Origin: Lachnospiraceae bacterium
Lineage (GTDB): Bacteria > Bacillota > Clostridia > Lachnospirales > Lachnospiraceae
Assembly: GCA_024698145.1 (NCBI GenBank)
Contig: JAILRO010000049.1
Coordinates: 1-41,017 of the forward strand
DNA length: 41,017 nt
Direction: 5' to 3'
The notes under the pieces: model-generated
The model's input: only the letters and a program-made list of their open reading frames with translations
The model's database searches: none
Told to the model about the DNA's origin: nothing
Shown: positions 23,361-39,755 of the stretch, piece by piece
Numbering within the stretch: the stretch's first letter is position 1
How the letters are laid out: every line of letters starts with the position of its first letter
Translations under genes and position numbers: made by a program

Positions 23361-24317
23361 TTAGTCCTCTCCGTTATTGAGAGATAATCCAAGTTCTTTC
23401 AATTTGTTAAGAACCTCGTCAAGAGACTTTCTACCAAGGTTACGAACTTTCATCATATCCTCAGTTGTCTTGCTTGTAAGTTCCTCAACAGTATTAATGC
23501 CGGCACGCTTAAGACAATTAAATGATCTAACTGAAAGCTCTAACTCATCTATGTTCATCTCAAGAACTTTCTCTTTCTCATTGTCTTCCTTCTCTACCAT
23601 AACCTCTGCTGACTTAGCATTCTCAGAAAGGTCAATGAAGAGATTCAAATGCTCTGAAAGTACCTTAGCTGCAAGACTTACAGCCTCATCAGGAGCAAGT
23701 GTACCGTTTGTATATACATCTAAAGTCAGCTTATCGTTATCAGTAACCTGACCTACACGTGTATTAGCAACAGTGAGATTAACTCTCTCTACAGGTGTAT
23801 ATATTGAATCTACAGCAATAACATCGATTGAAGAATCTTCTTTCTTGTTCTTGTCTGCTCCAACATAACCTCTACCCTTTGTTATTGTAAGCTCCATATC
23901 AAGTCTCGCATCCGGACCTGAAAGTGTTGCAATAACCAAATCTGGGTTAAGAATCTCAATGTCACTATCAACATGAATATCTGCTGCTGTAACAACACCT
24001 TCACCTATAAACTCAATGTATGCCTGCTTTGGCTCATTAGATGAACTGTTATTCTTGATAGCCAATTCTTTGATGTTCATAACGATTTCAGTAACATCCT
24101 CTTTTACTCCGGGAATAGAACTGAACTCATGTAAAACACCTTTAATCTTAATGTAGCTTACTGCTGAGCCCGGCAAAGATGATAACATAATTCTTCTTAA
24201 AGAATTACCAAGTGTTGTACCATAGCCTTTCTCCAAAGGTTCCACTACAAATCTACCGTATCTGTTATCCTCTGAGATTTCTGCAATCTCAATTCTTGGT
24301 TTTTCAAATTCAAACAC
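23361..24317 (-). CDS. rpoA: RNA polymerase alpha subunit
   Basis: A 318-residue alpha subunit. The N-terminal assembly domain shows [25 protein letters not shown]-type sequence; a flexible linker is followed by the C-terminal domain (about 245-315) with [16 protein letters not shown] and [12 protein letters not shown], which contact UP elements and activators. Length and order are normal, between rpsD and rplQ. Confidence 0.98.
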
Positions 24318-24352: not shown

Positions 24353-24946
24353 TTACTTAGAATACAACTCGACGATAAGTGTCTCATTAACTGGTACATC
24401 AATCTGCTCTCTTAAAGGAAGCTCTGTAACTGTACCGCTTAAGTTCTCCTGGTCAACATCTAACCATGCAGGAACTAATCTACCGCCTGTTACTTCTAAG
24501 ATATCTTTGTATCTCTGTAAAGATTTGCTCTTCTCACGAATCTCAATCTTATCTCCGGCTTTGATTCTGTATGAAGGAATATTCACACTCTTGCCGTTAA
24601 CCAACACGTGCTTGTGACCAACAATCTGTCTTGCCTCTCTACGTGTTCTTGCAAATCCCATACGGAATATTACATTATCAAGTCTTGACTCTAAAAGAAT
24701 CATAAGGTTAGGACCTGTAAGACCTTTCATTCTCTCTGCTGTTGCATAGAGATTACGGAAAGGCTTCTCCAATACTCCATAAATGAACTTTGCTTTCTGC
24801 TTCTCGCGAAGCTGTAAACCATATTCGCTCATCTTTCTGCTTGAGCGGATTAACTGTCTGTTTGACTTCTTATCTACTCCGAGAACCTGTGGTTCCATAC
24901 CCAAAGATCTACATCTTTTGAGAACCGGTGTTCTATCTACTGCCAT
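24353..24946 (-). CDS. rpsD: 30S ribosomal protein S4 (uS4)
   Basis: A 197-residue S4, primary binder of the 16S 5' domain. [24 protein letters not shown] lies in the S4 RNA-binding domain. It has no N-terminal zinc cysteines. S4 is an operon regulator in other bacteria; being co-located with rpsM here makes it the prime suspect for binding the structured RNA upstream of rpsM. Confidence 0.97.
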
Positions 24947-24962
24947 CTGAATATACCTCCTA

Positions 24963-25355
24963 TTACACTCTTCTACGCTTTGGTGGACGACATCCGTTAT
25001 GAGGAACCGGTGTTACGTCACGAATACTTAATACCTCAAGACCTGCAGCCTGAAGCGCACGAATAGCTGCCTCACGACCTGAGCCCGGACCCTTAACCAT
25101 AACGTCTACCTTCTTAAGACCATGTACCAATGCTGCCTTAGTTGCAGTCTCTGCTGCCATCTGTGCTGCATATGGAGTAGACTTCTTAGAACCCTTGAAA
25201 CCTAACTCACCGGCACTTGCCCATGAAAGCGCATTACCTTCATTGTCGGTTAATGTAACAATTGTATTATTAAAAGATGACTGAATATGTGCCTGTCCGT
25301 GTTCTACGTTCTTCTTAACACGCTTCTTAGTCACTTTTTTTGTAACTTTAGCCAT
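24963..25355 (-). CDS. rpsK: 30S ribosomal protein S11 (uS11)
   Basis: A 130-residue S11 of the 30S platform with [29 protein letters not shown] and the C-terminal [12 protein letters not shown]. Normal length; follows rpsM by 42 bp with a good ribosome binding site. Confidence 0.97.
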
Positions 25356-25397: not shown

Positions 25398-25766
25398 TTA
25401 TTTCTTCTTGTTTGCTACTGTTCTCTTAGGACCCTTACGAGTTCTAGCGTTAGTCTTAGTCTTCTGTCCACGTACCGGTAATCCCTTTCTATGACGGATT
25501 CCACGATAACATCCGATTTCCTGAAGACGCTTGATGTTAAGTGCGATCTCTCTACGAAGATCACCCTCTACCAACTGGCTATCATTAATAATCTCACTGA
25601 TTCTCTTAACCTCGTCATCTGTAAGATCACGAACACGAGTATCAGGGTTAACATTTGCTTCTTTCAAAATACGCTGAGATGAAGGAAGTCCAATACCATA
25701 GATATAAGTAAGACCTATCTCAACACGTTTTTCTCTTGGTAAATCTACACCTGAAATACGAGCCAT
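25398..25766 (-). CDS. rpsM: 30S ribosomal protein S13 (uS13)
   Basis: A 122-residue S13, which contacts the P-site tRNA and the L5 bridge. [20 protein letters not shown] and [19 protein letters not shown] are diagnostic. The start follows GGAGG by 11 bases. It is preceded by a 333-bp stem-loop-rich gap, which sets it apart from all other genes of the superoperon. Confidence 0.97.
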
Positions 25767-26099
25767 ACTGACTGCTACCTCCGTTTTGTAATAATAAAAT
25801 CTTTTACCCTAAGATTTCCTTATATAAGAATATTTCTTATACGTATTCTCCGAAAAACCTGCGTATCTCTGTGGGGTATCACAGAGTGAAATGCATACCG
25901 GCACTCTCCGAAGTCGAACCTGCTAATTATTAGGTTCTTTTATTGATATGTTATATGGGTTCATGACACCCATATATACAGCCGCTTTCAATTTCTTCTT
26001 CCATAATAAAGATCCGTTATTATAGAAGGAACTTCACACCGGGAATACGGTGTTACTTTGGTCAATAAGCTACGACAGTAATTATCGATGGGCTATCAT
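25767..26099 (-). ncRNA. Structured intergenic RNA between rpmJ and rpsM
   Basis: A 333-bp gap inside an operon whose other gaps are mostly 10-60 bp. Read 5' to 3' on the minus strand it shows: ACACCG/CGGTGT (26053-26048 with 26041-26036); a 12-bp stem with one wobble (26028-26017 with 26009-25998); an 8-bp stem ATATGGGT/ACCCATAT (25975-25953); GAACCT/AGGTTC (25937-25916); CTCTGTG/CACAGAG (25886-25867); and ATAAGAA/TTCTTAT (25840-25824). The CTCT of the fifth stem can instead pair upstream (AGAGTG 25907-25902 with CACTCT 25888-25883), so the two forms exclude each other. A module GCAGGTT...TTCGGAGA occurs twice. No ORF or terminator is seen. Most likely a leader controlling rpsM and the alpha genes; no known class was recognised. 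Confidence 0.65.
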
Positions 26100-26213
26100 C
26101 TATCCCTGTCTCTGCTTATGCTTCGGATTCTCACAGATTACCCGAATACTGCCTTTTCTTTTAATGACTTTGCACTTATCGCAAATTGGTTTAACTGATG
26201 CTCTAACCTTCAT
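26100..26213 (-). CDS. rpmJ: 50S ribosomal protein L36 (bL36), zinc form
   Basis: A 37-codon gene, [15 protein letters not shown] to KHKQRQG. C11, C14, C27 and H32 form the zinc-binding C+ version, which suggests a zinc-free paralogue may exist elsewhere for zinc starvation. The ATG at 26213 follows AAAGGAGAG. It lies just after an internal promoter and before the structured gap. Confidence 0.96.
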
Positions 26214-39519: not shown

Positions 39520-39755
39520 AAAAAAAGCCGCCTCCTTTTCGCACTTATTAGTAGTACGACAAGTGGTGACTGTACACTCTCCCGTGTGTGTCCTAAAATT
39601 ATTCATTCCAAAACTTATCACACGTCATCTCCGCCTCGCGGATGGTATATTGTACAGTGACTTGCCGTCAGTATCTAGACTTGACATTCGCTCCACGGAA
39701 AAACCTGCTATATTAAGCAGCAACCTCACGCTTCTACGCTATCAATGTCACAGCA
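39520..39755 (-). ncRNA. Long structured leader of the S10 operon
   Basis: About 235 nt between the predicted transcription start and rpsJ. GACTT...GACATT (39678-39688) pairs with AATGTC...AAGTC (39744-39761), enclosing CTGCT/AGCAG (39705-39720). Downstream are CCGCGAGGCGG and the complementary CTGTACA/TGTACAG segments. The position corresponds to the E. coli S10 leader bound by L4, but the fold was not matched to any known leader. Confidence 0.5.

Follow-up and report, generated by a model that had tools for sequence, protein, structure and literature searches.

A long structured gap between rpmJ and rpsM

The window, by which we mean the whole 41,017-nt stretch of Lachnospiraceae DNA that was analyzed, carries on its minus strand the genes map, infA, rpmJ, a 333-nt gap, rpsM, rpsK, rpsD and rpoA, in this order; the Lachnospiraceae belong to the Clostridia. 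The gene names, assigned via NCBIfam, place rpmJ (L36) at 26100..26213, rpsM (S13), the first downstream cistron, at 25398..25766, rpsK (S11) at 24963..25355, rpsD, the gene of the proposed ligand S4, at 24353..24946, and rpoA at 23361..24317, all on the minus strand. The gap occupies exactly 25767..26099 (minus strand), as a preliminary description of this DNA had stated, and the leader considered here is this entire intergenic RNA, on the sense strand and upstream of rpsM-rpsK-rpsD-rpoA. By the gene coordinates, the spacers within map-infA-rpmJ and within rpsM-rpsK-rpsD-rpoA measure 14–89 nt. The sense-strand fold of 25760-26102 was more stable than that of shuffled sequences (z = -3.11; 1/100 shuffles equally good).

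Read 5' to 3' on the minus strand, the leader begins with a hairpin, GAUG-AUAGCC-CAUC, that overlaps the rpmJ stop codon (26087..26100), followed by the H1 hairpin (ACACCG/CGGUGU with the loop UAUUCC; 26036..26053) and by H2 (25998..26028), which is the 12-bp stem of the preliminary description, present and 92% complementary. Further downstream are the GCGGCUG core element (25979..25985) and, 2 nt 3' of it, the P2 hairpin UAUAUGGGU/ACCCAUAUA (25952..25976), which was delineated by alignment and coincides with a weak match to the model described below. In M2 (25862..25899), CAUUUCAC bulges from the 5' side of a stem whose inner hairpin is CUCUGUG/CACAGAG, and a Shine-Dalgarno-like GGAGGU of rpsM is found at 25777..25782. 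The core (25985-25979) and the CAUUUCAC-bulge stem (25899-25862) had both been overlooked in the preliminary description.

The Shine-Dalgarno sequence was buried no more than in shuffles (paired 0.80 vs 0.78 in the genus), and anti-Shine-Dalgarno sequestration was rejected there. Promoter-like sites showed no excess over shuffles in the genus or family gaps and were in excess in the class gaps (20% vs 6% shuffled, at 10 or more of 12 matching positions). The gap of locus L204, which lacks GCGGCTG, holds a TTGACA-N17-TATAAT sequence (12/12 consensus) between rpmJ and rpsM, whose sequence suggests a separate alpha-operon promoter in that genome. Terminator-like hairpins were flagged in 53/172 gaps as compared with 13/172 in shuffles, by a crude test with one mononucleotide shuffle per gap. 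In the window, where a terminator had been reported to be absent, a dedicated scan gave one weak match, on the antisense strand, and the crude test flagged one sense-strand hairpin before a T run at 25857, in a segment poorly conserved across the genus.

Conservation of the leader within the genus

The gap, or its rpmJ-proximal half, was matched in 20 of the 26 genomes of the window's genus. A search of 144 relatives gave 22 matches, the two outside the genus being 21–22 nt long and without rpsM within 3 kb. All 20 genus loci were flanked by rpmJ and rpsM, with gaps of 264–434 nt. The gap sequence is single-copy, with one match in its own genome, and a genome-wide repeat, the outcome that the preliminary description had set against synteny with rpsM, is thereby refuted.

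Five helices were named on the 20-sequence alignment: H1, in which 100% of cells were paired and 3/6 pairs double-changed; H2, with 98.3% of cells paired in the 9 pairs that entered the count; P2, which reached 75.7% when read in a single register; and the two helices of M2, outer and inner (95.0% and 87.9%, respectively). When the two clades were each read in their own register, P2 was fully paired in 20/20 sequences, with compensatory changes present. Together, the genus helices contained 51 double-change cells as compared with 14.6 in shuffles, none of 500 shuffles being as high, while further pair types were not above shuffles (37 vs 36.1; reached by 213/500). The GCGGCUG core was invariant in 20/20 sequences. 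The AUAGCC loop of the 5' hairpin could pair with GGCUGU of the core, and this pair was kept in 19/20 genus sequences; it is almost invariant and therefore without covariation support.

Two further elements of the preliminary description fared less well across the genus. Both copies of the repeated GCAGGTT...TTCGGAGA module do exist in the window (25923-25905 and 25862-25847), but GCAGGTT occurs twice in only 2/20 genus gaps, and the copies sit mostly in segments of 0.30–0.45 identity in the genus alignment. The mutually exclusive helices sharing CTCT cannot be upheld as a conserved switch, with the alternative AGAGTG/CACTCT helix fully paired in only 2/20 genus sequences. The broader proposal of a structured alpha-operon leader, on the other hand, is strongly supported by synteny and covariation.

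GCGGCUG recurs across the family and forms a bulge in the class

We examined a first family sample of 79 relatives (L026-L104), in which the rpmJ-rpsM gap was at least 120 nt in 67 and shorter in 12. GCGGCTG occurred in 55/67 of these long gaps (shuffled, 1.2%) and CATTTCA in 27/67 (shuffled, 1.7%). A second family sample of 40 loci, four of whose gaps were identical to gaps of the first, contained 33 gaps of 120 nt or more, every one of them with GCGGCTG. Rows removed before counting were the duplicates L023, L024, L105, L106 and L025, the last with a gap identical to that of the genus member L011, as well as L156, which is without rpmJ. In nine relatives (L026, L032, L045, L049, L055, L060, L071, L074 and L085) the gap is only 14–33 nt, so that this leader is absent there, and rpsD is still in the operon.

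The CATTTCA module folded as stem, 5' bulge and stem in 47/56 family and class occurrences and in 18/21 genus occurrences, as compared with 38/385 for shuffled flanks. This CAUUUCA-bulge module, which corresponds to 25862-25899 in the window, is usually closer to rpsM than is the GCGGCUG core.

At the level of class and order, 60 loci were sampled, 59 of them with both rpmJ and rpsM and 49 with gaps of at least 80 nt, and GCGGCTG was present in 37/59 (shuffled, 0.4%). In this class form, GCGGCUG is a 7-nt 5'-side bulge between two stacked covarying helices, the outer P1 and the inner P2. With GCGGCUG held unpaired during folding, the inner hairpin P2 formed in 33/37 class loci and both helices in 32/37; in the controls, run on the first 122 motif loci, the corresponding values were 38% and 8% for random gap positions and 33% and 8% for shuffled flanks. 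The aligned class motif ends at a median of 71 nt (39–159) before the start codon, and its core therefore does not overlap the ribosome site. By eye, some class-family gaps without GCGGCTG share other conserved hairpin-like blocks (L187 with L203, and L194 with L206), which, judging from their sequences, are possibly other leaders in the same place.

A covariance model built from two loci gave 15 matches, and a model built from these 15 (R2) gave 27 matches in the 59 loci at E ≤ 0.5, the 15 included. MAFFT alone misaligned the 3' helices, and seeds of the same length were therefore selected, which the model then realigned; a pair alignment (A3) whose inner helices were out of register was discarded. 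Across the 27 aligned matches, 94.1% of cells were paired (56.0% shuffled), with 159 double-change cells (50.7 shuffled) and a covariation of 0.990 (0.267 shuffled), and in each case 0/500 shuffles reached the observed value. Sliding the partners reduced pairing to 41–47%. Double changes were seen at 15/15 pairs, a count that alone is not above shuffles (13.7; reached by 106/500). Because the realignment was fitted to the model, these alignment statistics favour the model's structure, a bias of which the folding test is free. The bulge read GCGGCUG in 26 of the 27 rows and ACGGCUG in one. Covariation of the stems across relatives, on which the preliminary description had made its proposal depend, was found in both the genus and the class alignments.

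When 283 whole genomes of the class were scanned with the model, 43 gave a match, one in each, a number that is a lower bound owing to stricter filters. Thirty of these loci were examined, and in 29 the match fell in the rpmJ-rpsM gap, on the same strand as rpsM (19/20 when the 10 model-training loci are left out), the exception being a weak R2 match of 23.7 bits away from rpsM (L250 in genome G348, near 1501). By coordinates, the remaining 13 comprised four just upstream of rpsM, four on contigs other than that of rpsM, and five that were unplaced. Five genomes that trained the model (G473, G528, G536, G550 and G561) are not among the 43, having either not been drawn or been lost to the stricter filters. 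Beyond the class, R2 gave five weak matches in 299 phylum genomes, one of them at rpsM (L218), and 2 of 40 other-class loci, taken from among the best RpsM matches, carried GCGGCTG, by eye between two helices (L295 and L299).

A probable derived form of the class element in the window

When scored with R2, the window gave a match that coincides exactly with the core (25952-25976) but, at 12.8 bits (E = 5.8), is not significant alone. Its near relatives L117 and L116, which have the core, P2 and the CAUUUCAC module in common with the window, scored 23.1 bits (E = 0.0095) and 19.0 bits (E = 0.12), respectively. Only 4 of the 100 genus and family sources that made up the R2 scoring set, from which family loci including L150-L155 were left out, reached E ≤ 0.01. 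In constrained folds the outer helix P1 was formed in 23/96 family occurrences and in 0/20 genus sequences, and both helices hence in 0/20; P2 was formed in 9/20 genus sequences, although it is pairable in 20/20 by alignment. In the isolated fold of the window, the last two bases of the core are paired.

The window nonetheless has GCGGCUG directly 5' of a covarying P2 between rpmJ and rpsM, the arrangement by which we define a GCGGCUG leader, and it shows the conserved, covarying structure consistently upstream of ribosomal-protein genes that characterizes ribosomal-protein leaders in general. Since the outer helix is missing or reduced in the genus, and the core, P2 and CAUUUCAC module are common to L117 and L116, we call the window a derived, P1-less form, short of full membership in the class form.

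Relation to known leaders

A scan with Rfam 15 gave no match in the gap at the gathering threshold; the only one elsewhere in the window was to the S10-Clostridia ribosomal-protein leader, an ordinary known leader (39662-39744, minus strand; 85.2 bits). At E ≤ 10, three chance-level matches appeared in or near the gap. Likewise, no gathering-level match to the core was obtained in 20 loci, 13 of which carry it, nor in 10 more. The statement that the RNA matches no known class thus holds for the sequence itself, which has no gathering-level Rfam match, but not for the location, as a published S4 leader candidate, RF03140, uses the same gap in other loci.

In the accessible part of Eckert and Weinberg (2020, PMC7247131), the listing for Clostridia includes an S4 leader that lies upstream of rpsM, rpsK, rpsD, rpoA and rplQ and opens with a conserved GAAA. 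This description fits RF03140, named S4-Clostridia in the portion of PMC7779021 available, and its S4 ligand was also a prediction in the original paper (ligand basis 'Prior'; PMC7247131, same part). RF03140 resembles the present leader in occupying the same gap upstream of rpsM-rpsK-rpsD-rpoA in Clostridia and in having S4 proposed as its ligand, and differs from it in being a 55-nt hairpin pair that starts with GAAAGG, ends with CCCAAUUAGG and is without the GCGGCUG bulge. It matched the same rpmJ-rpsM gap in 4 of the 20 loci scanned (these 20 included four from the window's genus). None of the 26 genus genomes was above its cut-off (37.5 bits), the window's own genome having a best score of 13.9 bits on another contig, and the window gap gave no match to it at the gathering threshold or at E ≤ 10. 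In L035, RF03140 (about gap positions 137-193) and GCGGCTG (offset 21) are separate modules of one leader. The present findings also suggest a larger leader of modular build, of which RF03140 represents a single part.

The Alpha_RBS element of E. coli (RF00140) is similarly located directly upstream of rpsM and would let S4 control S13, S11 and S4 together, but it is a pseudoknot containing the ribosome binding site (PMC10931766, available text). Its score in the window was 9.9 bits (cut-off, 38), and the matching segment, 25734-25825, covers the rpsM start rather than the core. Membership of the window leader in either RF03140 or Alpha_RBS was rejected, both being below cut-off. At E ≤ 5, the only nearby Rfam matches in 10 motif loci were sub-threshold Alpha_RBS matches over the rpsM start, at L178:825-933 (21.6 bits), where the match touches the last 4 nt of the GCGGCUG motif, and at L192:860-933 (19.5 bits), both of which may reflect coding conservation. 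The Bacillus/Firmicutes S4 (rpsD) leader with GUAA, compared here by description, is akin to our candidate in binding S4 and in being reported as an rRNA mimic (PMC7247131), but it resides at a separate rpsD gene (PMC10931766) and is reported absent from Clostridia (PMC7247131), as far as the accessible parts of these papers go. No description of a GCGGCUG leader was found in the literature searched, including the available text of PMC11109978, PMC8040213 and PMC6429828; subscription papers and supplements fell outside this search, and a printed description may exist.

S4 as the predicted ligand, and competing explanations

A conserved, covarying structure is fixed in front of rpsM. The gap RNA is probably an unrecognised, or at least unrecorded, self-control element of these ribosomal-protein genes, most likely sensing S4. 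The best explanation in our analysis, held with moderate confidence, is a cis-acting leader of rpsM-rpsK-rpsD-rpoA with a GCGGCUG core beside a hairpin, for which S4 is the predicted ligand by mimicry of 16S rRNA helix 18. S4 in excess of its rRNA sites would bind the core, which resembles the base of helix 18, and would thereby reduce rpsM expression and, through coupling, that of the downstream genes; control could be exerted on translation, as in E. coli, or on transcription. In the window's genus, with its missing or reduced outer helix, the core has accessory modules on both sides, H1 and H2 lying 5' of it and the CAUUUCAC-bulge stem closer to the start codon.

The likeness to the base of helix 18 is one of architecture: the E. 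coli helix 18 fold consists of an outer stem, a 5' bulge with GGCU and an inner stem, as does the class form. Helix 18 differs in belonging to rRNA and in having a 6-nt bulge, GGCUAA, of which 505-507 pair with 524-526 (PMC7356742, available part). The sequence in common, CGGCU, is short, the fold of the helix-18 piece surpasses those of shuffles only modestly (z = -1.35), and no general partner for a helix-18-type pseudoknot was seen in the leader. S12 is encoded in another operon. According to the accessible text of PMC7356742, no proteins other than S4 and S12 contact helix 18 directly, and the available part of PMC10931766 describes S4 as repressing the E. coli alpha operon from a site at rpsM.

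Among 84 loci, GCGGCTG occurred in 40/69 with rpsD in the operon as compared with 1/15 with rpsD elsewhere, and the median rpmJ-rpsM gap was 127 nt and 16 nt, respectively; the 15 rpsD-less loci represent three families and were partly picked for the absence of rpsD. In these same families, the four loci that keep rpsD (L260, L276, L279 and L281) are also without GCGGCTG, so that within families the motif does not follow rpsD. In the other classes, rpsD was in the operon in 39/40 loci, and 37 of these 39 were without GCGGCTG. L212 (genome G354) has kept GCGGCTG with rpsD located outside the operon; the stretch examined upstream of this distant rpsD had no GCGGYUG on its sense strand. The within-family counts do not support S4 and add weight to S13 or S11 and to an element with no ligand.

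The same leader could instead respond to S13 (rpsM) or S11 (rpsK), a possible but considerably less probable reading. It has in its favour that rpsM is the immediately downstream gene and that the motif fails to track rpsD within the three families and persists in L212 without rpsD in the operon. We know of no autoregulatory S13 or S11 leader. The motif is moreover absent from 14/15 rpsD-less loci, the established repressor of the E. coli alpha operon is S4 (PMC10931766), and the accessible part of PMC7356742 reports no contact of S13 or S11 with helix 18.

We consider it unlikely that the gap holds an intercistronic processing or stability element that lacks its own protein ligand, for example an RNase site or a set of insulating hairpins. 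The position inside the operon, the lack of excess promoter-like sites in the genus and the absence of special pairing at the Shine-Dalgarno sequence would all suit such an element, but a 7-nt bulge that stays invariant while the helices on either side vary freely is what protein or ligand sites typically show, and the leader is tied to one operon. That the leader is a diverged copy of RF03140 is very improbable: the two occupy the same gap, RF03140 being there in 4/20 loci, yet the window gives no match even at E ≤ 10, 0/26 genus genomes exceed the cut-off, and the separate modules of L035 already contradict this reading. A genome-wide repeat, a mobile element or chance stems, for which the unusual length of the gap might speak, have next to no chance of being correct given the single copy in the genome, the syntenic position in 20/20 genus loci and the covariation.

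Extending the S4 reading, we can picture the GCGGCUG bulge as a sensor of the alpha operon that is ancient in Clostridia and in some of their sister classes, with S4 reading a mimic of the helix 18 base. Members of the window's genus, having lost the outer helix, would instead pair the bulge with the AUAGCC loop of the 5' hairpin and so recreate in an mRNA the GGC-GCC pseudoknot known from helix 18, and the CAUUUCA module, as a second bulge in tandem, would contribute one more contact. This scenario is speculative and, taken as a whole, rather doubtful.

The class form measures about 40 nt and is thus compact; its single bulge is invariant and its helices vary freely, so that tests of ligand binding and rRNA mimicry would be simple. 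With the older S4 leaders reported absent from Clostridia and RF03140 proposed there (PMC7247131, accessible part), the S4-responsive GCGGCUG leader predicted here may explain how many Clostridia control their alpha operon.
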